A stretch of 64,000 bases of DNA from Candidatus Enterococcus testudinis (GTDB taxonomy: Bacteria > Bacillota > Bacilli > Lactobacillales > Enterococcaceae), in assembly GCF_002140915.1 (NCBI RefSeq), contig NZ_NGKU01000001.1:62001-126000 (forward strand), written 5' to 3'. The notes beneath the pieces were generated by a model that had not been told where the DNA came from, ran no database searches, and saw only the letters and a program-made list of their open reading frames with translations. Below are positions 11,218 to 43,308 of the stretch, piece after piece (position 1 is the stretch's first letter; each line of letters begins with the position of its first letter). Position numbers and translations under genes: made by a program.

Positions 11218-11220
11218 AAA

Positions 11221-11250
11221 AATGCTAGGCATCGTGCCTAGCATTTTTTT
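11221..11250 (+). terminator. Terminator after rny
   Basis: Eleven-pair perfect stem (11221-11231 with 11235-11245), loop TCG, followed by seven T. Confidence 0.9.
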
Positions 11251-11253
11251 ATG

Positions 11254-11292
11254 AAAAGAAGGAAGGTCCCTTTAAAGGATCTTCCTTCTTTT
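11254..11292. terminator. Bidirectional terminator, mainly for the treR operon
   Basis: Sixteen-pair stem (11254-11269 with 11277-11292, one wobble) with a seven-base loop. The A run on the left gives a T run on the minus strand, so it ends the trehalose operon transcript coming from the right. Confidence 0.8.
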
Positions 11293-11311
11293 ATTTGAGG
11301 GATTTGCTTGA

Positions 11312-12028
11312 TCAAATCTTTCTGCGTCGCGCGAAATCAACAAATCGGAATTTGTCTAAGCGATGAATCGATTCTGTATACTCGAAGCAACGCGTATCTT
11401 CTAAATAAACCAAGCTGCGGACTGTGACTACGTGTTGATCATCTGGATGCAGATCCATTAAATCACGCAATTCTTTATTTACTGGATCGACCGTAATTTC
11501 CTTTTGCGCATAAGCAATCTCTAACCCTAGATCATTTTCGAAATAATCGTATATCGACACTTGTGCCCGTTTCTCCGGCAAAGTTTGAATAATCGAGGCA
11601 TCTAAGTAGTCTTTATCCAAAATAACCACTTCACCATCGATTTTTCGTTGGCGCACTAGTTTCCAAGATTCAGCAGCAACTGGCCATTCTGTAATCTCAT
11701 GCAGTTTGGGTGATACTGCTATTTTCCGGATTTCCACCACTTTGGTTTCACTAGGGATGCGCTGGGTTTCTTGCAACTCTCTAAAACTCGTTAGACCAGA
11801 AATAGGGAAATCAAAACGGTTAAGGTCCAAAACAATGGAACCTTTGCCTTGTTTTTTTTGAATATAGCCGGCATTCCTCAAGAGATTTAATGCTTTACGA
11901 ACTGTTTCCCGAGATACACCATACGTTTGAATCAGTTGATTTTCACTTGGCAACAACGTATGGGGGGGATATTCTTTGGCCACGATTTTTTGTTCTAAAT
12001 CTAAAAATATTTCTTTGAACTTATTCAT
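11312..12028 (-). CDS. treR: GntR/HutC family trehalose operon repressor
   Basis: A 238-residue regulator with an N-terminal winged helix (residues ~1-70; LLPSENQLIQTYGVSRETVRKALNLLRNAGYI) and a C-terminal UTRA effector domain (~90-230; LDKDYLDASI, DTRCFEYTESIHR). Its length and overall pattern match TreR, which senses trehalose 6-phosphate and derepresses trehalose genes. The neighbours are pgmB, a GH65 phosphorylase and a trehalose PTS permease, which supports the name. GGAGG precedes the ATG. It has its own promoter besides possible read-through from pgmB. Confidence 0.88.
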   Translation of the reverse strand: MNKFKEIFLDLEQKIVAKEYPPHTLLPSENQLIQTYGVSRETVRKALNLLRNAGYIQKKQGKGSIVLDLNRFDFPISGLTSFRELQETQRIPSETKVVEIRKIAVSPKLHEITEWPVAAESWKLVRQRKIDGEVVILDKDYLDASIIQTLPEKRAQVSIYDYFENDLGLEIAYAQKEITVDPVNKELRDLMDLHPDDQHVVTVRSLVYLEDTRCFEYTESIHRLDKFRFVDFARRRKI

Positions 12029-15673: not shown

Positions 15674-17650
15674 ATGGGTAAGTATCACGATGATGCTGAA
15701 AAGCTATTAACGTATGTCGGCGGTAAAGAAAATATCGCGGCAGTCACACACTGTGCCACTCGGATGCGTTTTGTCTTGAATGATCAGTCAAAAGCAGATG
15801 AAAAGGCAATCGATGACATTGCAAGTGTAAAGGGAATGTTTACCAATGCTGGGCAGTTTCAAGTAATCATAGGCAACGATGTGTCCTCTTTTTACAATGA
15901 TTTCACAGCTGTTTCTGGAATTGAAGGCGTTTCAAAAGAGCAAAGCAAGTCAATCGCAAAGAACAACCAAAATCTCGTTCAACGTGCTATCGGTACATTA
16001 GCAGAGATTTTCACGCCACTATTGCCAGCAATCATTGTTGGGGGGCTCATGCTTGGTTTGCGGAACTTTTTAGAAGGCGTACCATTAGGCTTTTTAGGTG
16101 ACCAAACCATCACACAAGCATCTACATTTTGGAATGGCGTCAATGGATTTTTATGGTTGCCTTGTGAAGCAATCTTCCACTTCTTACCAGTAGGGATTAC
16201 TTGGAGTATCACACGGAAAATGGGTACCACACAAATATTAGGTATTGTTTTAGGTATTACATTGGTTTCACCGCAATTATTAAATGCTTACTCTGTTAGT
16301 TCAACAAGTGCTGCAGACATTCTCCAAAATTATACGTGGGACTTCGGATTCTTTACAATTGAAAAAATAGGTTACCAAGCACAAGTTATACCAGCTATGT
16401 TGGCCGGTTTCTTATTGGTTTATCTTGAACGATTCTTCCGTAAATGGATTCCAGAAGCTGTATCAATGATTTTTGTTCCTTTGTTCTCTTTATTACCAAC
16501 TATTTTAGCGGCTCATATGGTCTTAGGTCCGATCGGTTGGCAAATTGGATCAGGCATTTCTTGGGTCGTGAATGCCGGATTAACATCACCGCTTAACTGG
16601 TTGTTTGGCTTTATTTTCGGCGGCTTATATGCGCCGTTAGTAATCACTGGTTTACATCATACAACCTTAGCTATTGATTCCCAATTGGTTGCTGATTTCG
16701 GGTCAACCAACTTATGGCCGATGATCATGCTATCAAACATTGCACAAGGAACAGCTGTTTTTGCGATTTGGTTCTTACATCGCGGCAATAAAAAAGAGGA
16801 ACAAGTATCTGTTCCAGCAACAATCTCAGCATATATGGGGGTAACAGAACCTGCAATGTTCGGGATCAACCTGAAGTATGTGTATCCTTTCGTTGCAGCA
16901 ATGATTGGTTCAGCTTTTGGTGGTATGCTGATCACAGCAACGAATACCCGTGCATTAGGTATTGGGGTAGGCGGTCTACCTGGATTCTTATCATTTAAAA
17001 TCGAAAATTATCCAATGGTCTTCTTATCAATGGCGTTAACGATTGTCATTACCTTTGTCTTTACACTTATTTTGAGAAAAGTGAAGTTTTTGAATAAATT
17101 AGAACCAGATTTGGCGCTTGTAGATGCTGGTAATGTATCTGAAACAGCAACTACTGAAGCAACTGTTGCAACACCATCAGCTGTTTCTGCAACTGAAGAA
17201 ACACTCTATGCACCAGCAGACGGTCAAGTGATCGCAATCACTGAAGTATCAGATCCAGTTTTTTCACAAAAAATGATGGGTGATGGCTTTGCTGTTCAAC
17301 CAACAGATGGCACGGTTTATGCACCGGTAGCCGGAACAATCTCCAGTATTTTTGAAACCAAGCATGCGATTGGTATTCTAACGCCTGGCGGCGCTGAAGT
17401 ACTCGTTCACATGGGCTTAGATACAGTGGAATTAAAAGGCGCGCCTTTTGAGATCACAGTAGCTGAAGGCGACACAGTGACACCTGACACAAAAATAGCT
17501 GTCATGAATCTAGATGCAGTCACAGCAGCTGGTAAACAGACGGATATTTTAACAGTCTTCACCAATGCAGAGAAGGTCAATCAACTTTCACTCGCAAAAA
17601 CCGGTACTGTTCAAGCAAAAGATCAAATTGGGTCTGCTACATTAAATTAA
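15674..17650 (+). CDS. treB: Trehalose-specific PTS permease EIIBCA
   Basis: A 658-residue glucose-superfamily PTS permease with three domains: EIIB (residues ~1-85, phospho-acceptor Cys27 in AAVTHCATRMRF), membrane EIIC (~105-475, about ten hydrophobic helices) and EIIA (~510-650, with VLVHMGLDTVELKG placing the active His near residue 579). It imports trehalose and phosphorylates it to trehalose 6-phosphate. The fused EIIA makes it independent of a separate EIIA. Divergent from the GH65-pgmB-treR operon; AAAGGGG precedes the ATG. Specificity is inferred from context; sucrose- or maltose-type permeases share this layout. Confidence 0.88.
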   Translation: MGKYHDDAEKLLTYVGGKENIAAVTHCATRMRFVLNDQSKADEKAIDDIASVKGMFTNAGQFQVIIGNDVSSFYNDFTAVSGIEGVSKEQSKSIAKNNQNLVQRAIGTLAEIFTPLLPAIIVGGLMLGLRNFLEGVPLGFLGDQTITQASTFWNGVNGFLWLPCEAIFHFLPVGITWSITRKMGTTQILGIVLGITLVSPQLLNAYSVSSTSAADILQNYTWDFGFFTIEKIGYQAQVIPAMLAGFLLVYLERFFRKWIPEAVSMIFVPLFSLLPTILAAHMVLGPIGWQIGSGISWVVNAGLTSPLNWLFGFIFGGLYAPLVITGLHHTTLAIDSQLVADFGSTNLWPMIMLSNIAQGTAVFAIWFLHRGNKKEEQVSVPATISAYMGVTEPAMFGINLKYVYPFVAAMIGSAFGGMLITATNTRALGIGVGGLPGFLSFKIENYPMVFLSMALTIVITFVFTLILRKVKFLNKLEPDLALVDAGNVSETATTEATVATPSAVSATEETLYAPADGQVIAITEVSDPVFSQKMMGDGFAVQPTDGTVYAPVAGTISSIFETKHAIGILTPGGAEVLVHMGLDTVELKGAPFEITVAEGDTVTPDTKIAVMNLDAVTAAGKQTDILTVFTNAEKVNQLSLAKTGTVQAKDQIGSATLN

Positions 17651-17658
17651 ATGGATAC

Positions 17659-17710
17659 AAAAAAGTGCGTCGTTGGCTTCTTCCTATTGAAGCCAGCGAC
17701 ACACTTTTTT
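17659..17710. terminator. Bidirectional terminator between treB and the MFS gene
   Basis: A 22-base inverted repeat (17659-17680 with 17689-17710; one mismatch, one wobble) with six T on either strand. It overlaps the stop of the convergent MFS gene. Confidence 0.88.
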
Positions 17711-19073
17711 ATTTTGTCATGGTTTTTGGTCGAAAGAAGTAGTGAAGCATAAAGAAAAGAATGAGTAAGACCAATGCCCAAAGCACAAACATAGCGATTT
17801 GAGAACCAATGATCGTACCTTGCAAATAACCAGCGTTGCTTTGTGCTAGATTAATGATCGTCGCAACAATGGCCGTGGCAACTGCACCAGAAAATTGTTG
17901 CAGTGTATTGAAAATCGCATTGCCATCCGCATACGATTCCGGTGTTAATTTATTTAACCCAGTCGTCATCATATTGCTATAGGATAAGCCGATGCCAATC
18001 ATGTAAAATATGTGACCGGCTACTAATCCCCAAATAAATATACTGCGGAGTAAAAGTGCCAAAGCCAACCAACCGATGACGATGAGTACCATACCCAGTA
18101 AAATCGGTTTTTTAGGACCAACTTTGTCCAATAAACGTCCGGCAATTGGCGCCAATATTGCACCGATCGCAGCCCCTGGCAGCATAATCAAACCAGCTGT
18201 AAAGGCATCTTTACCTAAAACGATTTGAACAAAATTCGGCAAGACGAAAGATACGCCTAAGAGCAGAAACTGACACACAAGAAACCCAAATAAAAAGAGG
18301 CAGAAGCTTCGATTTTTTAAGACGTCTAAGCGAATCAAAGGATGCGGTCCTTTGGCCCGTTGCCAGAACAATCCCAGTCCCATGAAGCCCACAACCAGCG
18401 GTACCAGACTAGCGATTGTGCCCAATTGATTCAGGAAAAGCAAGAATCCGCTGAAGAGCATCACGATGGACAGCACACTGAGTACATCTAAGGTGGCATT
18501 TTTCGGTGCCGTATTTTTGGGGATCGATGATAATCCAAGAAACAGCGAAATCACTATCACCGGAATCAAAAATAAAAATATGGCATTCCAAGACCAATGG
18601 GCTGTCAGCAACCCGCCATACGTCGGCCCAATCGCAGGAGCGATCGATGTGGTCAAGTTGCCCAATCCAATCGTTGCACCTCGTTTTTCATACGGGGAGT
18701 AAGTCAAAATGATGTGAAACATCAAGGGCAGCGCAATACCGGTACTGGCACCTTGGAACAAACGGCCCAGCAATAAAATGGCAAAAGTCGGCGACAAAAA
18801 GTCAATCACCAATCCTGCCAGAAAGAACATATTGGCGGCTAAGAATAAGGTTCTTAATTGAAACCTCTTCAGAAGAAAAGTCGAAATAGGGACGATGATC
18901 GAAATCACCAATAAATAAATCGTTGTGACCCACTGGACGTCCGAAGTCGTGATGCCAAATTGTTGAATCAAGGTAGGAAAGGTCACGTTCATAGCTGTTT
19001 CTATCAAAACACCAGCAAATGACATCAATCCGGTTGCGAGGATAGCCCCCACGAGTTTTTTGTTGTTTTCCAT
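17709..19073 (-). CDS. MFS multidrug exporter, DHA2 family (EmrB/QacA type)
   Basis: A 454-residue transporter with about 14 hydrophobic helices. The DHA2 pattern is visible: motif A-like GRLFQGASTGIALPL, motif C-like GLGNLTTSIAPAIGPTYGGLL (about residues 130-150), and a second cytoplasmic-loop motif GRLLDKVGPKK. Such proteins export drugs, dyes or bile salts using the proton gradient; LmrB-like lincomycin exporters are the nearest known group. Substrate unknown. ATG preceded by AGAGGTGAATGT. Its ~105-base leader contains two stem-loops, one ending in a T run, which suggests regulation by premature termination. Confidence 0.88.
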   Translation of the reverse strand: MENNKKLVGAILATGLMSFAGVLIETAMNVTFPTLIQQFGITTSDVQWVTTIYLLVISIIVPISTFLLKRFQLRTLFLAANMFFLAGLVIDFLSPTFAILLLGRLFQGASTGIALPLMFHIILTYSPYEKRGATIGLGNLTTSIAPAIGPTYGGLLTAHWSWNAIFLFLIPVIVISLFLGLSSIPKNTAPKNATLDVLSVLSIVMLFSGFLLFLNQLGTIASLVPLVVGFMGLGLFWQRAKGPHPLIRLDVLKNRSFCLFLFGFLVCQFLLLGVSFVLPNFVQIVLGKDAFTAGLIMLPGAAIGAILAPIAGRLLDKVGPKKPILLGMVLIVIGWLALALLLRSIFIWGLVAGHIFYMIGIGLSYSNMMTTGLNKLTPESYADGNAIFNTLQQFSGAVATAIVATIINLAQSNAGYLQGTIIGSQIAMFVLWALVLLILFFMLHYFFRPKTMTK

Positions 19074-31865: not shown

Positions 31866-31910
31866 AAAAGCTAAAACAAGCTAAATTATTTAGTTTGTTT
31901 TAGCTTTTTT
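31866..31910 (+). terminator. Terminator after pulA
   Basis: Twenty-pair stem (31866-31885 with 31889-31908; one wobble), three-base loop, T run. Confidence 0.88.
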
Positions 31911-31973: not shown

Positions 31974-32993
31974 ATGAAGGTTGTTATCTCCGATATCGCC
32001 CGTCAAGCTGGTGTATCTAGTGGTACAGTTTCCAATGCTATCAATAATCGCAAAGGAATCAGCGAACAAAAACGGCAAGCAATATTGAAAATTGCGAGAG
32101 ACATGGGCTATTTTGATCAACGGGAAATCAAGAAAACTGAGAATCAAAAAATAAAGTTTGTCATTATGAATAAGCAAGGGAATGTAGTAGGGGATACACC
32201 GTTCTTTTCTGAATTGATTCGTGGAATCGAAATGGAATGCAGTACCTTAGGATATGAGTTGGTGATTTCCCATACAACATTGGCATTGAATGAAGAACCC
32301 ATGGATACGATTCGCCCAGAAATGGCAGATGGATTGCTGCTTTTAGGGACGGAATTGGAAAAAGCAGATTTAGATGCGTTTCGAGATATTGGTGTTCCTC
32401 TTGTTATTTTAGATACGGTGTTTAATGCACAAGACTTTGATTTTGTTGCAATCAATAATCGAGACAGTGCCTATCAAATCGTAGAAAAAATGATTGCCAA
32501 AGGTCATCGCGATATTGGGATTATCAATTCGACATTTCAAATCAATAATTTTCGAGAACGTAAGCAAGGATTTCTTCAGGCCATCCAAGATCATGACTTG
32601 ATCCACTATGAAGAAACTGAAGCACTCGTTGAACCGACGTTAGAAGGTTCATACCAAGATATGAAAATATACTTGGAATCAATGGTTGCAGACAATCGCC
32701 CATTGCCTAGCGCTTTTTTTGCGGTCAATGACAACATTGCCATTGGTGCGATGAAAGCAATCAAAGAAATCCAGAGTTCTAATCAAGTGACCATTGTTGG
32801 CTTTGATGATATTCCACTGGCTGAGTTTTGCAGCCCGCCTTTAACGACTGTCAAAGTAGACAAAGTGTATCTTGGCAGGCAAGCGGTTCGGCGGTTAATA
32901 GAGAAAATCACAACGGAAGACACCAATCATATCAAAATGCTTTTGGGTACAACTATCGTTGAACGAGAGAGCATTCAAATAAAAAAAGACTAA
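31974..32993 (+). CDS. LacI family regulator, likely controls the apioside operon
   Basis: A 339-residue LacI/GalR regulator: N-terminal helix-turn-helix and hinge (residues ~1-55; ISDIARQAGVSSGTVSNAINNRKGISEQ) and a periplasmic-binding-protein-like sensor domain (~60-335; VIMNKQGN, GIINSTFQINNFRERKQGF, AFFAVNDNIAIGAMKAIKE, VGFDDIPLAEFCSPPLTTV). It is probably the local repressor of the PTS-isomerase-transketolase operon that begins 130 bases downstream. The gene has its own promoter and a terminator that overlaps its stop, so it is transcribed separately. The effector is unknown. Confidence 0.9.
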   Translation: MKVVISDIARQAGVSSGTVSNAINNRKGISEQKRQAILKIARDMGYFDQREIKKTENQKIKFVIMNKQGNVVGDTPFFSELIRGIEMECSTLGYELVISHTTLALNEEPMDTIRPEMADGLLLLGTELEKADLDAFRDIGVPLVILDTVFNAQDFDFVAINNRDSAYQIVEKMIAKGHRDIGIINSTFQINNFRERKQGFLQAIQDHDLIHYEETEALVEPTLEGSYQDMKIYLESMVADNRPLPSAFFAVNDNIAIGAMKAIKEIQSSNQVTIVGFDDIPLAEFCSPPLTTVKVDKVYLGRQAVRRLIEKITTEDTNHIKMLLGTTIVERESIQIKKD

Positions 32994-33021
32994 ACATGTA
33001 AAAAGTGTTTAGTCTTTTTTA
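32982..33021 (+). terminator. Terminator after the LacI gene
   Basis: Fifteen-pair stem (32982-32996 with 33007-33021), ten-base loop and T run; the left arm includes the stop codon. Confidence 0.85.
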
Positions 33022-33035
33022 GTTTTTAAACAAAA

Positions 33036-33081
33036 ATATTTATCTAAAAGTCTTGCAAAATATTTAGCTTGTGATATAGTA
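33036..33081 (+). promoter_or_regulatory. Promoter and operator-like repeats of the apioside operon
   Basis: TTGCAA (33054-33059), a 16-base spacer and TATAGT (33076-33081) with an extended TG. AATATTTATCT (33036-33046) and AATATTTAGCT (33060-33070) flank the -35, 24 bases apart; the second sits in the spacer. A third copy inside a perfect palindrome lies at 33403-33413. These are candidate sites for the LacI regulator. Confidence 0.6.
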
Positions 33082-33123: not shown

Positions 33124-33411
33124 ATGACAACGATTGGTCTTTTTTGTACAACTGGATTATCTACTGCGCTTCTTATACAAGCATTAAAAGAGCAGGTAGG
33201 TGATCAGAAGGCGGTAGCGATTCATTCCGCCCCGTTTTCAGAAATCTTCATGTCGGGAAAAGGATGCGATTATTTACTGTTGGCGCCTCATACCCGATTC
33301 AATCTGGAAAAAGTAACCGCCGCTTTTCCAGATAAAAAAATTGTGTTATTGACAGAAGAAGAATTCAGATTTCGACACTTAGAACGAATTGTAAAAGAAA
33401 TAAATATTTAG
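33124..33411 (+). CDS. PTS EIIB component, lactose/cellobiose family
   Basis: A 95-residue cytoplasmic phosphocarrier. The active-site loop FCTTGLSTALL puts the phospho-acceptor at Cys8, matching the C-x2-G-x-S-T pattern of cellobiose-type EIIB proteins, and the LLLAPHTRF stretch (about residues 57-65) is the family's second conserved loop. It passes phosphate from an EIIA to the incoming sugar in complex with the EIIC encoded seven genes downstream. No EIIA gene is in the window, so one must be shared. First gene of the operon; AAGGAG precedes the ATG. Confidence 0.85.
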   Translation: MTTIGLFCTTGLSTALLIQALKEQVGDQKAVAIHSAPFSEIFMSGKGCDYLLLAPHTRFNLEKVTAAFPDKKIVLLTEEEFRFRHLERIVKEINI

Positions 33412-33418
33412 CTAAATA
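33405..33418 (+). repeat. Perfect 14-bp palindrome at the EIIB stop codon
   Basis: TATTTAGCTAAATA spans the end of the EIIB gene and the gap before the isomerase. Its left part repeats the motif found twice at the operon promoter (33036 and 33060), so it may be a downstream operator. Confidence 0.5.
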
Positions 33419-33439
33419 AATAAAAATAGGAGAGGTTTT

Positions 33440-34846
33440 ATGGATAAAGTAAAAATTGGTTTCGCCCCTACACGCAGAAATCTTTTTAGTGCAGAAGCAG
33501 CCATTGAATATGCGAATTTAACTCGTGAAAAAATGGATGAATTAGCGATTGATTATGTTGATATTTTGAACATCAATGAGGATGGTCTGCTTTATGATGA
33601 TGAGGGCGTTGAACAAATCGCTGAAAAGTTCAAAGCCGCAAAAATAGATGGTTTGTTTATTGCCAATGAAAATTTCGGCACCGAATATGCCTGCGCCCGT
33701 CTAGCCAAAAAGTTGGATGTCCCTGTTTTATTGTGGGGGCCAAAAGATGAAACGCCAGCAGCAGATGGATCCCGTTTGCGAGATACCCAATGTGGACTAT
33801 TCGCGATTGGTAAAGTGTTACGTCGATTCAAAGTACCATTTACCTACGTAAAAAATTCTGATATTGATTCACCAGAATTTGCTCGTGGCTTGCAAGATTT
33901 CATTAAAGTCTGCAATGTTGTCAAAACCTTTAAACAAACCCGTATTTTGCAAGTCGGACCACGACCATTTGATTTTTGGACAGTGATTTGCAATGAAGGA
34001 GAATTGTTGGAAAGATTCAATATTTCTTTATCGCCAGTCCCAATCAAAGAATTGGTCCAAGAAATTGAAAAGATCAAAGAGACACGAGCAGAAGACGTAC
34101 AAGCGGTCATCAACTATTTTGAAGCCAATACGGAAGTGCAAATTTCTGCAAAAGACCTAGAGATGGTTGCAGCCTTAAAGGTTGCTTTGCAAAGTTTGTG
34201 TCAGACTTATGGCTGTAATGCCGGTGTCATTCAATGTTGGACAGCGTTGCAAGATGAGATTGGTATTTTGCCCTATGCTTCATTGTCTTTATTGCAAGAA
34301 GAAGGACTCCCATTTGTTTGTGAAACCGATGTCCATGGTGCAATTTCAGAGTTATTGATCGAAGCGGCTTCATTAGGGGAGCATCGAGCGATTTTCGCAG
34401 ATGTGAATTGCCGGCATCCTGAAAATGAAAACGGTGAATTGCTGCAGCACTTAGGTGTCTTTGCTTATTCAACAGCAGAAACGAAGCCGATTTTACCACA
34501 ACGCCATTTTGTGTTTGATTATCCTGGTTCGGTGGCGTTTCGTGCCATTAAGGATGAATATACGTTGTGTCGATTTGATGGGGACAATGGGGAATATTCA
34601 TTACTAATGGGTACCGGAAAAGGGATTGATGGGCCTTATAACCAAGGAACGTATTTGTACCTGGAATTTGATAATTTAAATCGCTTAGAGTTCAAATTAG
34701 TTGAAGGACCTTATATCCATCATGTGGCTGCAGTTAGAAAAAATGTTGTACCAATTTTATATGAAGCATGTAAATATTTGGGCGTTCAACCTGACTTCTA
34801 TGATCCAATCGAAGAGGATGTTAAAGCGTATTTGAGAGGGGATTAA
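33440..34846 (+). CDS. FucI/AraA-fold sugar isomerase, candidate D-apiose isomerase
   Basis: A 468-residue protein with the overall pattern of L-fucose/L-arabinose isomerase-like enzymes: an N-terminal Rossmann-like domain (KIGFAPTRRNLFSAE; DGLFIANENFGTE near residue 72), a middle part RPFDFWTVICNEGELLERFN (about 175-195) and a metal-site C-terminal half (CETDVHGAISELL, ADVNCRHPENENGELLQH). Members interconvert aldoses and ketoses using a divalent metal. Next to an FGGY kinase, a two-subunit transketolase and an apiosidase-like glycosidase, the likely reaction is D-apiose to D-apulose, but another pentose or deoxyhexose cannot be excluded. AGGAGAGG precedes the ATG. Confidence 0.75.
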   Translation: MDKVKIGFAPTRRNLFSAEAAIEYANLTREKMDELAIDYVDILNINEDGLLYDDEGVEQIAEKFKAAKIDGLFIANENFGTEYACARLAKKLDVPVLLWGPKDETPAADGSRLRDTQCGLFAIGKVLRRFKVPFTYVKNSDIDSPEFARGLQDFIKVCNVVKTFKQTRILQVGPRPFDFWTVICNEGELLERFNISLSPVPIKELVQEIEKIKETRAEDVQAVINYFEANTEVQISAKDLEMVAALKVALQSLCQTYGCNAGVIQCWTALQDEIGILPYASLSLLQEEGLPFVCETDVHGAISELLIEAASLGEHRAIFADVNCRHPENENGELLQHLGVFAYSTAETKPILPQRHFVFDYPGSVAFRAIKDEYTLCRFDGDNGEYSLLMGTGKGIDGPYNQGTYLYLEFDNLNRLEFKLVEGPYIHHVAAVRKNVVPILYEACKYLGVQPDFYDPIEEDVKAYLRGD

Positions 34847-34848
34847 CT

Positions 34849-35685
34849 ATGGAAATCACTGCGTTAAAATTAAAAGCATTGGAGATTCGTAAAGAAGTTT
34901 TGTCATTGATCTATCATGCCAAAACAGGGCATACCGGTTCTGACTTGTCTTGTACAGATATCCTCGTTGCGTTGTATTATCAAGTGATGCACATTGATGC
35001 AACAAAACCTGATATGATCGATCGTGACCAATACATTCAAAGCAAAGGACATGCGGCTGAAGTATTGTGGACTGTTTTGGCAGACAAAGGTTTTTTGACA
35101 AAAGAAGAACTTCAGACATTTTCTCAACTCAATTCACGCTTGATTGGTCACCCCAACAATAAAGTTGCGGGCGTTGAAATGAATACCGGTTCTTTAGGAC
35201 ATGGGTTGCCAGTTTCTGTTGGGATTGCGTTAGCTGGGAAGCTTGATCAGCGTCCTTATCACACGTATACGTTATTGGGAGATGGAGAACTCGCTGAAGG
35301 GTCTGTATGGGAAGGTGCAATGGCAGCTGCGAATTACAAACTTGATAATTTGACGGCAATCATTGACCGTAATGGGCTGCAAATTACTGGCGCATCGGAG
35401 GATGTGATGTCGGTAGAACCATTAGATGACAAATGGCGGTCGTTTGGCTGGGATGTACATGTGGTTGACGGCAATGACATGATTGCTTTGGTCGAGGTTT
35501 TGTCGCAACCCAATAAAAAAGATACACCCAAAATGGTGATTGCAAAAACAATTAAAGGCAAAGGCTACTCGGAAGCGGAGAATCAAGCCCATTGGCATCA
35601 TAAAGTACCGACGGCAGAACAACTGGCGCAAGCACTATCAGAAATTGAGGCGCAGATGGAGGTCTTACGTAATGGGGAAGAATAA
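34849..35685 (+). CDS. Transketolase, N-terminal (TPP-binding) subunit; AptA-like
   Basis: A 278-residue protein equal to the N-terminal third of transketolase. The thiamine diphosphate motif GDGELAEGSVWEGAMAAANY begins at about residue 145 and ends with NLTAIIDRNGLQ; TGSLGHGLPVSVGIALAG precedes it. With the next gene it makes a two-subunit transketolase. In the known D-apiose pathway, subunits AptA and AptB split D-apulose 4-phosphate with glyceraldehyde 3-phosphate into dihydroxyacetone phosphate and xylulose 5-phosphate; that assignment here is inferred from neighbours. The start lies 2 bases after the isomerase stop; the end overlaps the next gene by 14 bases. Confidence 0.85.
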   Translation: MEITALKLKALEIRKEVLSLIYHAKTGHTGSDLSCTDILVALYYQVMHIDATKPDMIDRDQYIQSKGHAAEVLWTVLADKGFLTKEELQTFSQLNSRLIGHPNNKVAGVEMNTGSLGHGLPVSVGIALAGKLDQRPYHTYTLLGDGELAEGSVWEGAMAAANYKLDNLTAIIDRNGLQITGASEDVMSVEPLDDKWRSFGWDVHVVDGNDMIALVEVLSQPNKKDTPKMVIAKTIKGKGYSEAENQAHWHHKVPTAEQLAQALSEIEAQMEVLRNGEE

Positions 35686-36613
35686 TGTAGCAAACCGTCA
35701 AGCAATGTGTGAGATACTCATTGAAGAAGGTACAAAAAATCAAGCGATTACTGTGTTGACCAGCGATTCTCGAGGTTCAGCTTCATTGGCTGATTTTGCT
35801 CGTACATTGCCCAAACAAATCGTTGAGGTAGGCATTGCGGAACAAAATATTGTCAGTATTGCTGCTGGTTTGGCACATATGGGCAAGCGTCCATTTGTGG
35901 CATCTCCTGCTTGTTTCTTAAGTATGCGGAGCATTGAACAAATCAAAGTCGACGTTGCGTATTCAAACAAAAACGTTAAATTGGTTGGTATCAGCGGTGG
36001 TGTTAGTTATGGCGCATTAGGGATGAGTCATCATTCCTTGCAAGATATCGCAGTTGCCCGTGCTATTCCTAATTTACAGGTTTTGCTGCCAGCTGATCGC
36101 TTTGAAACCATCCAAATGTTCAAAGCACTGGCACAATCAGACGTACCCGCCTACATCCGTTTGGGGAGAAATCCTGTAGAAGACTGCTATGCTTCTGCTG
36201 ATTATCCATTTGAAATTGGAAAAGCTGTGGAAATGCGGTCTGGCGAGGATATCACTTTGATTGCAACGGGAGAAACTGTCAGACAAGCACTGGATGCCGC
36301 TGAGATACTTGCTGAGGAAGGAATCAAAGCAACAGTACTGAACGTTCATTCTTTGAAACCTTTCGACAGTGAAGCCGTATTACGTGTCGCTAAGAAGACA
36401 GGTATTGTGGTCACAGTAGAAGAACACAGTCTGTATAATGGGCTAGGCGCCGCAGTTGCGGAAGTGTTGGCAGCAGAAACAGGAATCCGCCAAAAAATCG
36501 TGGCCTTTCCTGATGAAGCATTGATTACAGGTTCTGGTCCGGAATTATTTGCCCACTATGGCTTAGATGGTGCGTCGATTGCCAAAACAGCAAAAACGTT
36601 TATTGGAGGGTGA
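35672..36613 (+). CDS. Transketolase, C-terminal subunit; AptB-like
   Basis: A 313-residue protein equal to the C-terminal two thirds of transketolase. The pyrimidine-binding domain carries the catalytic Glu in EVGIAEQNIVSIAAGLAHMGK (about residues 49-69), and the C-terminal domain reads DITLIATGETVRQALDAAEIL. Start ATG at 35672, preceded by GGAGG at 35658-35662; a longer frame from 35540 would overlap the N-terminal subunit by 146 bases with basic, low-complexity residues and is rejected. The separate N and C subunits are a natural arrangement, not a frameshift: each has its own start and ribosome binding site. Confidence 0.85.
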   Translation: MGKNNVANRQAMCEILIEEGTKNQAITVLTSDSRGSASLADFARTLPKQIVEVGIAEQNIVSIAAGLAHMGKRPFVASPACFLSMRSIEQIKVDVAYSNKNVKLVGISGGVSYGALGMSHHSLQDIAVARAIPNLQVLLPADRFETIQMFKALAQSDVPAYIRLGRNPVEDCYASADYPFEIGKAVEMRSGEDITLIATGETVRQALDAAEILAEEGIKATVLNVHSLKPFDSEAVLRVAKKTGIVVTVEEHSLYNGLGAAVAEVLAAETGIRQKIVAFPDEALITGSGPELFAHYGLDGASIAKTAKTFIGG

Positions 36614-36614
36614 G

Positions 36615-38063
36615 ATGGATAAACCTTACCACATTGTTTTAGATCAAAGTACGTCTGGTACCAAATTGCTTTTATTTGAAAATGGCAAAATACGTTATCG
36701 AAAAGACAAGAAACATCAGCAGATTTATCCAAAAGTCGGGTGGGTCGAACATGACCCCCTTGATATTTGGCATAATGTGCAAGCGCTTTTAGCGGATGTT
36801 TTTTCAGAACAAGCGATTACACCAGCTGAGGTTGCTGCACTATCGATCACCAATCAAAGAGAAACGATTATAGCATGGGACCGCACTACGGGGAAACCGC
36901 TATACAATGCGATTGTTTGGCAATGTAATCGCAGTGCTGCGATTTGTGAATCAATGCTTGCCAAGGGGCTTGAACCAATGATCAATCAAAAAACAGGTTT
37001 GAAAATTGATCCCTATTTTTCAGGCACCAAAATAAAATGGTTAGTCAACGAGATTACAGCAATCAAAGAAAAATCTGGGAGTGGTGATTTGGCGATCGGC
37101 ACCATGGATAGTTGGCTCTTGTGGCATTTGACTGAAGGCAAAGTGTTCGCGACAGAAGCAAGCAATGCTTGCCGTACATTGTTGTATAATATTTCAACAT
37201 TGGATTGGGATATGGAGTTGATTGACTTATTCGGCATTGATTTGGCTGATTTGCCTATGCTGAATCCAGCAGATGCCAGTTTTGGGTATTACCGAGGCAT
37301 ACCAATCAAAGGAGTTATGGCTGATTCGCAAGCTGCGTTATTTGGGGAAGAATGCACCGATATCGGTGATGTCAAAATCACGATGGGCACAGGTTGTTCG
37401 ATCATGATGCAAGTGCAACAGCAGAATCAGTTGCGAGATCAACGTATCTTGACCACCACGGCTTGGCAAACAGCACATGACCAAGCTTTTGCATTAGAAG
37501 GAATCATCCGCTCTTGCGGCGATGCTATCAACTGGTTTAGTGAACATATTGCACCATTGCAGGATGTGACAGCTATTTGCGACCAAATATTGGATCAAGA
37601 CAGTGATGAAGCCATTTATTTCATTCCTGCATTACAAGGGATGGGGGCACCATTTTGGAACAATCAAATGACAGCCAGTTTTTTGGGAATGAAGCGAACG
37701 TCAACTCAAAACGATTTATTGCGGGCAGTTCTAGAAAGCACAATTTTCCAAATCAAAGCCGTGATCGATGTGATGGAAGAAGTATCTGGACGTATGATCA
37801 ATCAGGTCATGATTGACGGCGGCATGTCAAAGAATACTGGATTAATGACGTTATTGGCCACCTTGCTGCACAAAGAAGTCGTCGTTAGCGAAGTGGAAGA
37901 ATTTTCGGCGATTGGGACTATGTCAATGGCTAAACCACAGCAACAAGCGCATCATTGGCAACAAAAACGGATCCAACCGAAAGCCGATCAGGCGACGATT
38001 CGTTTGAAATATGAAAAATGGAAACGGTTAATTGATTTGTCGATAGCTTTGGAAGGTGAGTAA
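36615..38063 (+). CDS. FGGY family carbohydrate kinase, candidate D-apulose kinase
   Basis: A 482-residue kinase of the FGGY family, close in pattern to glycerol and xylulose kinases. Visible: phosphate-1 loop VLDQSTSGTKLLLFE (about residues 7-21), SITNQRETIIAWDRTTGKPLYNAIVWQ (85-111), MGTGCSIMMQV (~258-268) and the adenosine motif VMIDGGMSKNTGLM (~398-411). It phosphorylates a ketose or polyol with ATP. Between the transketolase and the apiosidase-like gene, D-apulose is the best guess (product D-apulose 4-phosphate). ATG at 36615 with GGAGGG; the upstream in-frame ATG at 36567 overlaps the previous gene without a ribosome site. Confidence 0.82.
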   Translation: MDKPYHIVLDQSTSGTKLLLFENGKIRYRKDKKHQQIYPKVGWVEHDPLDIWHNVQALLADVFSEQAITPAEVAALSITNQRETIIAWDRTTGKPLYNAIVWQCNRSAAICESMLAKGLEPMINQKTGLKIDPYFSGTKIKWLVNEITAIKEKSGSGDLAIGTMDSWLLWHLTEGKVFATEASNACRTLLYNISTLDWDMELIDLFGIDLADLPMLNPADASFGYYRGIPIKGVMADSQAALFGEECTDIGDVKITMGTGCSIMMQVQQQNQLRDQRILTTTAWQTAHDQAFALEGIIRSCGDAINWFSEHIAPLQDVTAICDQILDQDSDEAIYFIPALQGMGAPFWNNQMTASFLGMKRTSTQNDLLRAVLESTIFQIKAVIDVMEEVSGRMINQVMIDGGMSKNTGLMTLLATLLHKEVVVSEVEEFSAIGTMSMAKPQQQAHHWQQKRIQPKADQATIRLKYEKWKRLIDLSIALEGE

Positions 38064-38074
38064 GGAGGGGGATC

Positions 38075-38941
38075 ATGGATACAACAGGATTTCGGATCAA
38101 TGATACGGCATATGTCGATACGTATCTGCTACATCAATCGAAAGAGTTCAACGTGGGAAAGAAAAGACCGATAGTCATTGTTTGCCCAGGAGGAGGTTAT
38201 GCGTTCACAAGCGATCGTGAAGCAGAAGCTATTGCGCTAAAATTCAACAGTATAGGGCTAAATAGTGTTGTTCTCTGGTATACAACTGGGGACCAGGTAA
38301 AGAATGTGCCGCAGCATGCATTAGTAGAGGCAGCACAAACTGTTCAATACATTCGCGCACACGCGAATGAATGGCTTGTTGATGAAACGAAGATCATTGT
38401 TTGCGGGTTTTCTGCAGGAGGTCATTTGGCCTTGCAACTGGCGACTAGATGGCATGATCCTTTACTTGCTTCAAAGTTAGGCATAAAGAGTGAAGACATT
38501 AAAGTTGATTTAGCGATTGCAGGGTACCCACTTGTCTATCAAGAAAAAGCTTTTGCACCCGACGAGTTAGGATTTGCCGCATCGGTGATTGCGCATCCGT
38601 TGACAGCAAATGAACGGTTCTTCGGGGCTAAAGAGCCTACAGATACAATGATTCAGCAAATGAATGTTTTGCACTATGTAGATGAATGGACGCCCCCGAT
38701 GTTCATTTGGCACACCACAGAAGATGTATTGGTCGATGTTGACCATTCCTTGAAACTTGGGGTTAAATTAAGAGAAAAAAAACGCCCTTTTGAAATGCAT
38801 ATCTTTGAAAAAGGAGAGCATGGATTGGCACTAGGGGATCGTACGACTGCCAGAAAGGCAAGCCACTTGGATCCACACGTAGCACAATGGTTTACATTAT
38901 GTGAAGGCTGGCTTCGTACGTATATTGATTCGCCTGAGTAA
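38075..38941 (+). CDS. Alpha/beta hydrolase, carbohydrate esterase-like
   Basis: A 288-residue cytoplasmic alpha/beta hydrolase of the BD-FAE/acetyl-xylan-esterase-like group. The oxyanion loop CPGGGYAFTS is at ~37-46, the nucleophile Ser113 lies in CGFSAGGH, and the remaining triad members are probably Asp in HTTEDVLVDVD and His in KGEHGLALGD. No signal peptide. It probably removes acyl groups (acetyl, malonyl or phenolic acids) from an imported glycoside, which would fit acylated plant apiosides; the substrate is inference. GGAGGGGG precedes the ATG, 11 bases after the kinase stop. Confidence 0.8.
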   Translation: MDTTGFRINDTAYVDTYLLHQSKEFNVGKKRPIVIVCPGGGYAFTSDREAEAIALKFNSIGLNSVVLWYTTGDQVKNVPQHALVEAAQTVQYIRAHANEWLVDETKIIVCGFSAGGHLALQLATRWHDPLLASKLGIKSEDIKVDLAIAGYPLVYQEKAFAPDELGFAASVIAHPLTANERFFGAKEPTDTMIQQMNVLHYVDEWTPPMFIWHTTEDVLVDVDHSLKLGVKLREKKRPFEMHIFEKGEHGLALGDRTTARKASHLDPHVAQWFTLCEGWLRTYIDSPE

Positions 38942-38971
38942 GGCGTAATCATAAGAAAGGGGAACTATCAA

Positions 38972-40249
38972 TTGAAATTAACCGTTAGTCAAAATAAGCG
39001 CACCTTATTAAGAGATGGCCGCCATTTCTTCTATCTTGCAGATACCTGTTGGAGTACATTTACGAGTATCCAAGAAAACGAGTGGATCACGTATTTGGAT
39101 AAGCGTAAAGAGCAGGGGTTTAATACCATTCAAATTAATATTCTTCCACAATGGGATCGCAGTAAAGGGGCATTCGATTTATTGCCTTACCCGGTTGAAG
39201 GAAAGAAATTTGATTTTGGTCAGACAAATAATGACTATTTTGAAAGAGCACAACGGCTTTGCCGCATAGCAGATGAAAAAGGATTCACATTGGCACTTGT
39301 TGTATTATGGTCTAATTATGTTGCGGGCACATGGGCAAGTGAGCTTGATGGCAGTATCAATGTCATTCCGCAAGCGAAACGACAAATTTATTATCAACAA
39401 GTTATTGATACATTTGATGTATTTCAGCCATTATATTTTATTGGAGGGGATACAGATTTCCCAACCCAAGAAACAATCGATACTTATTTGGAAGCGTTTG
39501 ATTATTTTGAAAAAAACTCACCAGAGACATTAAAAACGATTCATATCAAAGGAAGATTCAAGGAGATTCCAACATTGATCTTACCGCATTTAGATGTATT
39601 CTTATATCAATCAGGGCACAATAGTTCATTCTTAGATATGCCTTATACATTAGCAGAACATTTTTATCAGTTGGAGCCACAACTACCGATCATCAATTCA
39701 GAGCCTTGTTATGAGCAAATGGGTTTTGCTAGACAAGTATATGGCCGTTTTGGGCAAAAGGATGTTCGAAAAGCGGCGTGGCAATCGATCTTATCAGGCG
39801 GATCAGCCGGGATTACTTATGGCGCTCATGGCATTTGGAGTTGGCAAACACAAGAAGCGGCTTTTGCTGAAGATATTGGAGAAGCATTCGACAGCCCGAT
39901 GATATGGTCAGAAGCATTACAATTTCCTGGGGCCAATGATTATGGTTTTATCAAGCAGTTATTTGAATTATTAGCAATTGAACAATTGATCCCATGTCAG
40001 CAACATTTGGTTGATGCAAATGACCACATTCGTATGGCACAAACAGTAGATCAAGTGTATACATTGCTTTATCTACCTAGTAATACCACCATTCGTTTGC
40101 GTAATATACCAATAAGCAACGTGACACTCATTGATTTAAAAGAAAGAAGATTCTTTAAACCAAATTATAGTGTTACAGAAACAACCACTGTATTTAAACC
40201 ACATACATGCCAAGAAGATGTCCTGTTGATCATAGAAAATAAGGAGTGA
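38972..40249 (+). CDS. DUF4038 glycoside hydrolase, GH140 apiosidase-like
   Basis: A 425-residue TIM-barrel protein with the DUF4038 pattern: FYLADTCWSTF (residues ~20-30), YLDKRKEQGFNTIQINILPQW (41-61), FIGGDTD with Asp160 (156-162), INSEPCYE with Glu244 (241-248), and AWQSILSGGSAGITYGAHGIWSW (269-291); a small C-terminal beta domain follows. The founding enzyme of GH140 is an endo-apiosidase that releases apiose-linked chains of rhamnogalacturonan II; other DUF4038 proteins are uncharacterised. No signal peptide, so it acts on imported material. Start TTG at 38972 with AAGGGGA upstream. Asp160 and Glu244 are the obvious catalytic candidates. Confidence 0.8.
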   Translation: MKLTVSQNKRTLLRDGRHFFYLADTCWSTFTSIQENEWITYLDKRKEQGFNTIQINILPQWDRSKGAFDLLPYPVEGKKFDFGQTNNDYFERAQRLCRIADEKGFTLALVVLWSNYVAGTWASELDGSINVIPQAKRQIYYQQVIDTFDVFQPLYFIGGDTDFPTQETIDTYLEAFDYFEKNSPETLKTIHIKGRFKEIPTLILPHLDVFLYQSGHNSSFLDMPYTLAEHFYQLEPQLPIINSEPCYEQMGFARQVYGRFGQKDVRKAAWQSILSGGSAGITYGAHGIWSWQTQEAAFAEDIGEAFDSPMIWSEALQFPGANDYGFIKQLFELLAIEQLIPCQQHLVDANDHIRMAQTVDQVYTLLYLPSNTTIRLRNIPISNVTLIDLKERRFFKPNYSVTETTTVFKPHTCQEDVLLIIENKE

Positions 40250-40254
40250 AAAAA

Positions 40255-41574
40255 ATGGAAAAATATATGGATAATGTCTTAGTTTTTGCAGATAAAATCT
40301 CTAATAATCGCTATTTAAAAGCAATCTCAAACGGATTGATGGCAACATTGCCAATCAATATCATTGGTTCAATTGCTTTGCTGCTGGCAGTATTGCCTAT
40401 ACAGGGATGGACCAACTTTATTACATCTATCAATATTGGTGGCTATTTTTCAGTAGGTTATAGTATGACTGTTGGTGTCATTTCAGTCTATGCTGCCTTT
40501 TTAGTAGGGCACCGATTGGCAACAGAGTTTAAACAATCCGCTGTGCCAGCAGGAATTGTTTCGTTGTTTGCCTTTTTGATGATGACACCTTTAGTGACTT
40601 TAGAAGAAACCACAACTTTAGACATGAGTAAGTTGGGTGCACAAGGATTATTTACGGCCATGATTTGCGGGTTGGTATTTGCAAGAATTTATTGCTTGAT
40701 TCTAGAAAAGAATATTGCAATCAAAATGCCTGCCGGTGTTCCGCAATTTGTAACGGATACGTTTGCTGGTTTGATTCCAGCTATTATCACAGGATTTATC
40801 GCAATTATTGTTAGCTGGGCATTTAGTTTTACGGCTTATGGCTCATTTTCTGATTTTATTTATCAAATTTTAGCTTTACCGTTGCAAAGTTTATCTTCAA
40901 GTGTTGGTTCCCTATTGTTCATTATCTTGATTCAAATGGTTCTTTGGTTCTTCGGGATTCATGGCTCATTAGTTGTAGGTAGTTTTATCACAGCATTATA
41001 CTTGCCAATGGACGTTGAAAACATGGACGCGTTGGCGTCTGGAGTGGCACGTTCGGAGTTGCCAAATATCTTGAGCAAATCTTTCTATGATTTATTCGCT
41101 GGAATTGGCGGTGCGGGCGGAACTTTATCATTGGTAATTGTTATTCTGTTGATTGCCAAATCTAAACAATCCAGAACTGTGGCAAATCTAAGCGCTGTAC
41201 CAGGTCTATTCACAATCAATGAGCCAATGATCTTTGGTCTGCCTTTGATTTTGAACCCAATTATGGCCATTCCATTTATTTTAACACCATTGGTTCAAGC
41301 GTTTATTGCTTATCTCGCTATTTGGAGTGGAATCGCACCTCGCTTGAGCGGTGTACAAGTACCATTTGGCACACCAATCTTCTTGAATGGATTTTTGGCG
41401 GGCGGCTGGCAAATCGCTGTCTTGCAAGTAGTATGTGTCTTAGCAGGTTGTGTATTATATATACCGTTTGTTAAAATCTTAGACAAAGAAAAATTGAAAT
41501 CAGAAGCAGCCGCTGAAGCAGAAGCACAATCTGATCGAGCTGAAACAATCAAAGCATCAGCAGAGACTATTTGA
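40255..41574 (+). CDS. PTS EIIC component, lactose/cellobiose family
   Basis: A 439-residue membrane permease of the cellobiose EIIC family, with 8-10 hydrophobic helices and the family stretches LMATLPINIIGSIALL (~25-40), FFGIHGSLVVGSF (~230-242) and FTINEPMIFGLPLILNP (~320-336), where the Glu lies in the sugar site. The C-terminal tail is acidic and alanine-rich. It pairs with the EIIB at the head of the same operon and imports with phosphorylation a beta-glucoside-like disaccharide. I start at the ATG at 40255 (AAGGAG 8 bases upstream); a GTG at 40246 overlaps that site and the previous stop. Last gene before the antiterminator leader. Confidence 0.88.
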   Translation: MEKYMDNVLVFADKISNNRYLKAISNGLMATLPINIIGSIALLLAVLPIQGWTNFITSINIGGYFSVGYSMTVGVISVYAAFLVGHRLATEFKQSAVPAGIVSLFAFLMMTPLVTLEETTTLDMSKLGAQGLFTAMICGLVFARIYCLILEKNIAIKMPAGVPQFVTDTFAGLIPAIITGFIAIIVSWAFSFTAYGSFSDFIYQILALPLQSLSSSVGSLLFIILIQMVLWFFGIHGSLVVGSFITALYLPMDVENMDALASGVARSELPNILSKSFYDLFAGIGGAGGTLSLVIVILLIAKSKQSRTVANLSAVPGLFTINEPMIFGLPLILNPIMAIPFILTPLVQAFIAYLAIWSGIAPRLSGVQVPFGTPIFLNGFLAGGWQIAVLQVVCVLAGCVLYIPFVKILDKEKLKSEAAAEAEAQSDRAETIKASAETI

Positions 41575-41644: not shown

Positions 41645-41673
41645 ATGACAATCCACCCACATCATGGTATAGT
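41645..41673 (+). promoter_or_regulatory. Promoter of the 6-phospho-beta-glucosidase leader
   Basis: ATGACA (41645-41650), a 17-base spacer and TATAGT (41668-41673) with an extended TG one base before. Transcription would begin near 41680, giving a leader of about 185 bases that contains the antiterminator site. Confidence 0.7.
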
Positions 41674-41694
41674 TAACCCAAGAAAACCCACGTT

Positions 41695-41724
41695 GGATTG
41701 TTACTGACTCGATCAGGCAAAACC
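41695..41724 (+). promoter_or_regulatory. LicT/BglG-type ribonucleic antiterminator (RAT)
   Basis: The 30 bases begin GGATTGTTACTG and end CAGGCAAAACC, the well-known conserved ends of RAT elements bound by BglG/LicT/SacY proteins, around a short variable centre. Its last six bases are shared with the left arm of the following terminator, so forming one excludes the other. The antiterminator gene itself is not in this window. Confidence 0.85.
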
Positions 41725-41769
41725 TAAATAAGATAACGCTCTTGGTAGCGGCTCTTATTTAGGTTTTTT
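41719..41769 (+). terminator. Conditional terminator controlled by the RAT element
   Basis: Stem 41719-41733 with 41753-41767 (AAACCTAAATAAGA against TCTTATTTAGGTTT) followed by T. Located between the promoter and the GH1 gene; read-through requires an active BglG-type protein. Confidence 0.85.
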
Positions 41770-41805
41770 ATTTTTTTCTGGGTGTTTCTGCGGTTGAAAT
41801 GATAG

Positions 41806-43308
<1,503 letters not shown>

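Follow-up and report, generated by a model that had tools for sequence, protein, structure and literature searches.

The closest described counterpart of the system considered here is the non-oxidative D-apiose pathway ApsI-AplK-AptAB, reportedly worked out by Carter et al. in 2018, in which an isomerase is combined with a GlpK-like kinase and a two-subunit transketolase. The same three kinds of protein are encoded within a run of eight genes (33124–41574) in a 64,000-nucleotide stretch of Candidatus Enterococcus testudinis DNA (NZ_NGKU01000001.1, positions 62,001–126,000; the whole stretch is called the window). As judged from its sequence, this run quite probably serves the LacI-controlled utilisation of a beta-apiosyl-glucoside imported by the phosphotransferase system (PTS). 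Apiose is present in plant cell walls and in more than 1,200 plant metabolites (PMC10602602, PMC10602597; papers given by PMC number are cited for the portions of their text that were available). In E. coli SE15 the cluster genes (our locus L082) are named aplK, aptA and aptB; E. coli strains carrying the cluster grow on D-apiose, SE15 not being among the strains grown; apsI is present in Pectobacterium and not in Escherichia; and the 2018 work took in gut Clostridia, all according to the available text of PMC13001218.

Like this pathway, the window locus has an isomerase, a kinase and a two-subunit transketolase, and the likeness extends to the transketolase clade and to the substrate-site residues of the kinase. 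It differs in having PTS enzymes EIIB and EIIC in place of the sugar ATP-binding cassette (ABC) importer, an isomerase of another subfamily, and a linked glycosidase of intracellular type together with an esterase. Compared with the GH140 beta-apiosidases (BT_1012, PDB 3kzs/5msy; 8t9w), the glycosidase has the same fold, catalytic Asp/Glu and aromatic residues, whereas it lacks a signal-peptide-like start, is linked to PTS and apiose-type genes, and is 19–22% identical to them. Operons combining a cellobiose/beta-glucoside PTS with a 6-phospho-beta-glucosidase resemble the locus in their lactose/cellobiose EIIC, in the GH1 gene alongside and in the LicT/BglG-type leader before GH1; in contrast, the window adds a further glycosidase, predicted to act ahead of GH1, and a complete route for the pentose that it would release. 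The component families are known, and their combination with a phosphotransferase importer would be known chemistry in a new wiring. The sequence-only reading, an earlier annotation of this DNA, knew of no described PTS route for apiosides, and none was found in the open-licence literature either, most subscription papers lying outside that scope; nor did the literature searched contain a description of apioside use by Gram-positive gut, food or plant-associated bacteria.

That reading had recognised, behind a LacI gene, genes for EIIB, a FucI-fold isomerase, transketolase N and C subunits, an FGGY kinase, an esterase, a DUF4038 protein and EIIC. All of these open reading frames (ORFs) are open and match the families named. 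The activities given below are predictions from gene content, folds, clades and active-site residues.

31974..32993, + strand: LacI-family regulator gene (PF00356 and PF13377 over cut-off)
33124..33411, + strand: PTS EIIB, lactose/cellobiose family (PF02302 23.5 bits, cut-off 23.6; TIGR00853 30 bits, cut-off 110)
33440..34846, + strand: isomerase, predicted to convert D-apiose to D-apulose (AlphaFold2/Foldseek; 28% identity to the Rahnella/Klebsiella isomerase)
34849..35685, + strand: transketolase N-terminal subunit, AptA-like (PF00456; identity to E. coli SE15 AptA; tree)
35672..36613, + strand, ATG start: transketolase C-terminal subunit, AptB-like (PF02779, PF02780; identity to E. coli SE15 AptB; tree)
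36615..38063, + strand, ATG start: GlpK-like FGGY kinase, predicted D-apulose kinase (NF000756 score; Ser-Ser signature)
38075..38941, + strand: alpha/beta-hydrolase esterase, predicted to deacylate a glycoside (PF20434 BD-FAE)
38972..40249, + strand, TTG start: PF13204/GH140-like glycosidase, predicted intracellular beta-apiosidase (PF13204; AlphaFold2 model)
40246..41574, + strand, GTG start: PTS EIIC, lactose/cellobiose family (TIGR00410 354.5 bits, cut-off 236; PF02378 168 bits)

The eight genes from EIIB to EIIC lie on the same strand, separated by gaps of at most 30 bp or overlapping by at most 14 bp. Their order is retained in relatives, so the operon is not a chance grouping. Pfam scores are 147 bits for Transketolase_N, 105 for Transketolase_C, 198 for FGGY_N and 79 for BD-FAE; that of EIIB is just below the cut-off, and the protein has an N-terminal Cys followed by TTGLST, as read from the sequence. 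The nearest isomerases are those of Enterococcus sp. RIT-PI-f (97% identity) and of E. gallinarum and E. casseliflavus NBRC strains (95%). In two related loci the EIIC gene is divided between two ORFs (L005, 15778–16970; L006, 15812–17080), possibly by a frameshift or a sequencing error.

A search of 84,980 species genomes yielded 108 relatives of the isomerase, and the loci of the best 80 were analysed. The isomerase, both transketolase subunits and the kinase occur together in 62 of the 63 loci whose flanks each measure 4.5 kb or more; the exception, L076, carries one of the most distant isomerases (52% identity), and in L053 and L062 the kinase is situated ~7 kb away from the core. In a second sample, 395 genomes of the same order, PF13204 was scored over its cut-off and the isomerase at E values up to 1e-40. 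PF13204 was found in 23 genomes, the isomerase in 25 and both in 22 (shared genomes and gaps were tallied by eye from tables). In 20 of the 22 the two genes share a contig, at a distance of up to 5.9 kb, and in G023 and G217 they are on different contigs. PF13204 occurs without the isomerase in G342 and the isomerase without PF13204 in G206, G212 and G294; a 24th genome, G124, has a PF13204 match below the cut-off. The co-occurrence has Fisher p values of 8e-32 by genome and 4e-10 by genus, uncorrected for relatedness.

The AptA-like subunit is 45% identical to AptA of E. coli SE15 and the AptB-like subunit 40% to its AptB. Raw identity was dropped as a criterion because split transketolases from other loci reach 47%, against 45% for AptA; a tree with outgroups was decisive. 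This tree was built on the pairs of 22 isomerase loci together with seven of 11 matches lacking the isomerase; of eight such stretches considered, one with a short C subunit was omitted. The enterobacterial AptAB (E. coli/Rahnella/Klebsiella), the 22 isomerase-locus pairs, the window pair and that of Monoglobus form one clade with 100% support in the Shimodaira–Hasegawa-like approximate likelihood ratio test (SH-aLRT), and outside it lie the seven split pairs of isomerase-free loci. The window pair thus belongs to the AptAB clade. Other sets of genes surround the outgroup pairs, in one type with a GAT-family PTS permease among them, and a split transketolase alone is therefore no sign of apiose. 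Other split pairs in this bacterial order were seen in L113–L120, some of them beside a GAT-family PTS permease.

The kinase scores 457.7 bits against the GlpK model NF000756 (cut-off 498) and that of the E. coli apiose cluster 490.4 bits. Phylogeny was dropped as a criterion, since a tree with 32 locus kinases did not separate the groups confidently, and active-site residues were used instead. The glycerol-binding residues of E. coli GlpK are R84, E85, Y136, D246, Q247 and F271. Of these, R, E and D are conserved throughout: the window kinase, 69 locus kinases and the GlpK and AplK-type sequences compared all have them. Where GlpK has Q247 and F271, the window kinase has Ser/Ser, and so do all 69 locus kinases compared (69 of 72 cluster kinases, those longer than 400 residues) and 3 of 3 enterobacterial cluster kinases. 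The same positions are Gln/Phe in the GlpK of the window's own genome, in E. coli GlpK and in five solved glycerol kinases (three of them near-identical), Asn/Gly in XylB and Thr/Ile in FucK. The window kinase therefore carries the signature of the apiose-cluster kinases, to which the sequence-only reading had suggested comparing it. A Lys at GlpK position 18 is also common to the kinases of these clusters, but xylulokinase has the same residue. Since one end of apulose is a glycerol unit substituted on C2, a glycerol kinase with an altered pocket would be a natural source of such an enzyme.

For the isomerase, no relative was found in the PDB by sequence, and sequence libraries gave weak matches (PF02952, 20 bits, cut-off 29.3; the sulfoquinovose isomerase SftI, 102 bits, cut-off 700). 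Its AlphaFold2 model (predicted local distance difference test, pLDDT, 90.9) is matched best in Foldseek by L-arabinose isomerases (template modelling score, TM, 0.84), followed by D-arabinose and L-fucose isomerases, so that the label 'FucI-fold' is right by structure. Plasmid records of Rahnella and Klebsiella contain a syntenic cluster with an extra 'fucose isomerase', which is taken here as ApsI from its position and from the available account of apsI in Pectobacterium (PMC13001218). The window protein aligns with these isomerases, assigned as ApsI by synteny only, at 28% identity and with an hhalign E value of 1.3e-37 over 442 columns. E295, D321, H337 and H428 are invariant in 32 isomerases (31 of the 80 loci and the window), and the Rahnella protein has E, D, H and H in the same alignment columns. 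They appear to be placed like the residues that bind the metal in arabinose and fucose isomerases. It had been cautioned that the isomerase might belong to a different family from the studied apiose isomerases; a distinct subfamily is indeed indicated, and the idea of an unrelated family is abandoned, because the protein appears to be a remote relative within the superfamily of the presumed ApsI.

The SftI match is the sole NCBIfam match of the isomerase, and in sulfo-transketolase pathways, too, an isomerase is paired with a split transketolase. One alternative is hence a sulfoquinovose pathway, with sulfoquinovose as the substrate of the isomerase and sulfofructose as that of the split transketolase. 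The match is, however, far below the 700-bit cut-off, and comparable scores (114–117 bits) are reached by the presumed ApsI proteins. The operon has a kinase, for which a sulfo-transketolase pathway has no known need, the Pfam scan revealed no sulfoquinovosidase-like gene among the operon genes, and the linked glycosidase is GH140-like. We rejected a sulfoquinovose pathway as highly improbable on the score below the cut-off, the kinase and the linked glycosidase.

The glycosidase is the sole PF13204 ('Apiosidase') protein in the genome and scores 260.5 bits (cut-off 26.5). Its AlphaFold2 model (pLDDT 86.2) is closest among solved structures to 8t9w, titled a GH140 apiosidase (TM 0.82), and next to 5msy/3kzs, BT_1012. 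D160, E244, W27, W113 and Y247 align with D187, E284, W63, W149 and Y287 of BT_1012, residues given for that enzyme in the available text of PMC4032388. The catalytic Asp/Glu and the three aromatic residues are invariant in 20 sequences (19 of 23 loci and the window), and in a crude test none of 23 homologues has a signal-peptide-like hydrophobic stretch. With solved GH140 apiosidases as its best model matches and the catalytic residues kept, the DUF4038 protein was aptly called GH140-like. PF13204 is nevertheless broader than the few enzymes tested, to which the window protein is ~19–22% identical, and another aldose, from a different furanoside or a branched pentose, might be released by it and processed by an isomerase, kinase and transketolase of altered specificity. 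Both the transketolase clade and the kinase signature are common to clusters tied to growth on apiose, and ordinary ketose phosphates would presumably need no dedicated transketolase; an aldose other than apiose is accordingly very unlikely. The esterase scores 184.6 bits against the lp_1002 arylesterase model (cut-off 300).

Linkage of the glycosidase subfamily (profile score above 150 bits) to PTS genes was counted in the 60 of the 80 loci with flanks of at least 8 kb, 56 of which are in the isomerase tree used for pairs. The PTS queries were of the lactose (lac), beta-glucoside (bgl), mannose, mannitol and GAT types, and other PTS families could be missed. A PTS sequence is present in 22 of 22 loci with the glycosidase subfamily, L078 being doubtful in that its EIIA domain is on the glycosidase ORF itself, as against 3 of 38 loci without it: L019 (GAT type), L020 and L023 (beta-glucoside or mannose type). 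The latter two are among the 11 loci in which the DUF5060 form of PF13204 occurs alone. The Fisher p value is 1.6e-13; scoring L078 as without PTS gives 5e-12. The PTS types found with the glycosidase are lactose/cellobiose EIIC and beta-glucoside EIIABC (both PF02378) and, in Vagococcus elongatus, the unrelated mannose type. The esterase is present in 14 of the 60 loci, all with the glycosidase. The linkage and the absence of a signal-peptide-like stretch in the homologues support PTS-linked import of an apioside, as the sequence-only reading proposed.

In a rival reading the apiose pathway is the same but the PTS carries something else, for example free apiose, a rhamno-apioside or an apioside of some other sugar, and the substrate of the glycosidase is unphosphorylated. 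Such a cargo would be in keeping with the GH78 alpha-L-rhamnosidase, GH127 or GH1 genes of some related loci, with the occurrence of lac, bgl and mannose-type PTS alike, with the separate status of the GH1 gene beside the window operon, and with an RbsABC-type importer that L032 has as well. But apiose delivered as a phosphate by the PTS would make the separate kinase needless, and lactose/cellobiose and beta-glucoside PTS suit beta-glucosides. Moreover, a GH1 6-phospho-beta-glucosidase gene is situated directly 3' of the kinase gene in the Lactobacillaceae loci L020, L023, L026 and L028. We therefore regard a different cargo as unlikely.

The apiose reading is thus supported by the co-occurrence of PF13204 with the isomerase, the transketolase clade, the kinase signature and the glycosidase model, and the following sequence of steps may be proposed. 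Lactose/cellobiose-type EIIs phosphorylate the 6-OH of glucose. EIIB and EIIC, with a shared EIIA encoded elsewhere, would import the glycoside and phosphorylate its glucose. This needs the 6-OH of the glucose to be unoccupied, so that apiin-type 1->2 apiosides are favoured over 1->6 ones. Three lactose-type EIIA (PF02255) genes are present elsewhere in the genome. The esterase might then strip an acyl group, for example malonyl, acetyl or hydroxycinnamoyl; this is the weakest step, the ester substrate being a guess. The cytoplasmic GH140-like enzyme would free D-apiose, presumably unphosphorylated since a separate kinase is present, and the isomerase would convert it to D-apulose. The kinase would phosphorylate one CH2OH of the glycerol-like end to give D-apulose 4-phosphate, a reaction that would explain the recruitment of a glycerol-kinase-like enzyme. 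The two-subunit transketolase would shift the C1-C2 glycolaldehyde unit to glyceraldehyde 3-phosphate, yielding dihydroxyacetone phosphate and xylulose 5-phosphate, and a 6-phospho-beta-glucosidase, probably the adjacent, separately regulated GH1, would open the remaining phosphoglucoside. A phosphoketolase would use xylulose 5-phosphate; in L017 such a gene follows the one for the glycosidase, and in L020 a member of its sequence cluster lies ~5 kb upstream of the isomerase.

Several observations weigh against this proposal. The isomerase tree offers only five independent pairs that bear on the coupling of PTS and glycosidase; all five point the expected way (p 0.06, a value obtained before L019 and L023 were added to the PTS loci). 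L009 was counted as PTS by hand after its mannose-type genes had been identified, and the PTS families sought in the other loci are incomplete. An RbsABC-type importer is present in 12 of the 60 loci, one of which, L032, also has the glycosidase and PTS, and L030, outside the 60, combines such an importer with a short PF13204 fragment. No EIIA was found among the operon proteins. The GH1 gene is outside the operon and is not beside it in the nearest relative, L002. PF13204 of other architecture occurs without the short subfamily in L060 and in 11 loci with the DUF5060 form, at least some of them beside major facilitator superfamily (MFS) or ABC genes, and 12 of the 80 loci have nucleoside-hydrolase-like or GH78 genes without PF13204. 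The low identities of the glycosidase to the solved apiosidases and of the isomerase to the presumed ApsI, together with the weak match of the latter to the sulfoquinovose isomerase model, point the same way. In BLAST the window kinase is nearer to true GlpK (343–346 bits) than to apiose-cluster kinases (285–300 bits), and the kinase tree separates AplK, GlpK and locus kinases without confidence.

Variants of the glycosidase were seen in several loci. The architecture DUF5060-PF13204-DUF5605 characterises the 11 isomerase loci without the short form (L024, L034, L068 and others). In L060 (Catenibacillus scindens) a PF13204 + PF12904 protein of BT_1012-like architecture (16435–17898, 321.7 bits) is encoded near the isomerase core; no PTS gene was found there with the lac, bgl, mannose, mannitol and GAT queries. 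After the core of the Enterococcus loci L007, L011 and L075 (~13645), a Sde182 nucleoside-hydrolase-like protein and an MFS transporter replace PF13204 and PTS, and the profile also revealed nucleoside-hydrolase-like genes in Clostridia loci. The Sde182-type loci could possibly contain a second kind of furanosidase for apiosides. In L078 (Lactobacillus jensenii DSM 20557) the PF13204 ORF (10443–11789) lacks its own C-terminal part and runs into a PTS_EIIA_1 domain (145.7 bits). According to the available text of PMC10711310, some L. jensenii strains have lost a large part of the DUF4038 gene by deletion.

On balance it seems likely that an apioside pathway coupled to the PTS and running wholly inside the cell is found across lactic-acid-type Firmicutes, assembled more than once on one conserved isomerase-transketolase-kinase core, with three PTS families (lactose, beta-glucoside and mannose types) and a second apiose-isomerase subfamily. 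The taxa that we would rather tend to include are Enterococcus, Vagococcus, Streptococcus, Lactococcus, Lactobacillus relatives and, by a single locus, Listeria. In that locus, L098 (10710–19782, Listeria monocytogenes), the isomerase, transketolase N and C, a GlpK-like kinase, a beta-glucoside EIIABC and a PF13204 gene stand in one run, with a LacI gene on the opposite strand ahead of it. The same system is probably represented by the region lmo1031-lmo1035, matched by gene order and not by locus tag; the available text of PMC2996996 lists there, in sequence, a hypothetical gene, two transketolase genes, a glycerol kinase gene and a beta-glucoside PTS. A conserved cluster of vaginal L. jensenii, with isomerase, DUF4038 and DUF5060 genes, has been suggested to have amylase-like GH13/GH14 functions (PMC10711310, available text); the present results point to apiosides instead. 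If the pathway exists as proposed, it would give a function to such orphan operons, including those of Listeria and L. jensenii, and a testable one to widespread genes labelled transketolase, glycerol kinase, fucose isomerase or DUF4038. It would also predict which bacteria free flavonoids, such as apigenin from apiin, and would suggest a transporter swap around a fixed metabolic core, ABC importers serving in many loci and PTS with an intracellular apiosidase in others.

The control region and the adjacent GH1 unit contain the following features.

31876..31886, + strand: candidate operator half ACAAGCTAAAT upstream of lacI (word count)
33053..33080, + strand: candidate promoter TTGCAA-16-TATAGT with TG, overlapping the near-palindrome GCAAAATATTTAGC
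33062..33072, - strand: second copy of ACAAGCTAAAT, within the near-palindrome (word count)
41645..41673, + strand: candidate promoter ATGACA-17-TATAGT with TG, upstream of the GH1 gene (promoter-like match)
41695..41724, + strand: site like the ribonucleic antiterminator (RAT) of LicT/BglG antiterminators, overlapping an intrinsic terminator (pattern match)
41866..43308, + strand, ATG start: GH1 6-phospho-beta-glucosidase, adjacent separate unit (NF007158 646 bits, cut-off 639)

The 11-base word ACAAGCTAAAT has just these two copies in the window, against 0.07 expected, and both sites would fit an operator of the LacI protein. L002, L004 and L005 carry the near-palindrome unchanged; that of L003 differs slightly. 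A terminator-like hairpin (32982–33020) lies 3' of the lacI gene. Promoter-like matches in the region are no commoner than in shuffles. Neither tRNAs nor Rfam matches at the gathering threshold were found in the window.

The GH1 gene, which lies directly downstream of the operon and is not named in the sequence-only reading, was excluded as a member of the operon by its own promoter-like site, RAT-like site and terminator; it is a unit of its own, of beta-glucoside type, whose enzyme could complete the breakdown. The RAT-like pattern has one match, a perfect one, against none in 100 shuffles. The GH1 leader (41690–41775) folds at -26.4 kcal/mol (z -4.5), Rfam at the gathering threshold being silent on it. 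Seven antiterminator RNA-binding domains are encoded in the genome, and the exact RAT pattern recurs in 1 of 122 loci, L003, where it likewise precedes GH1.

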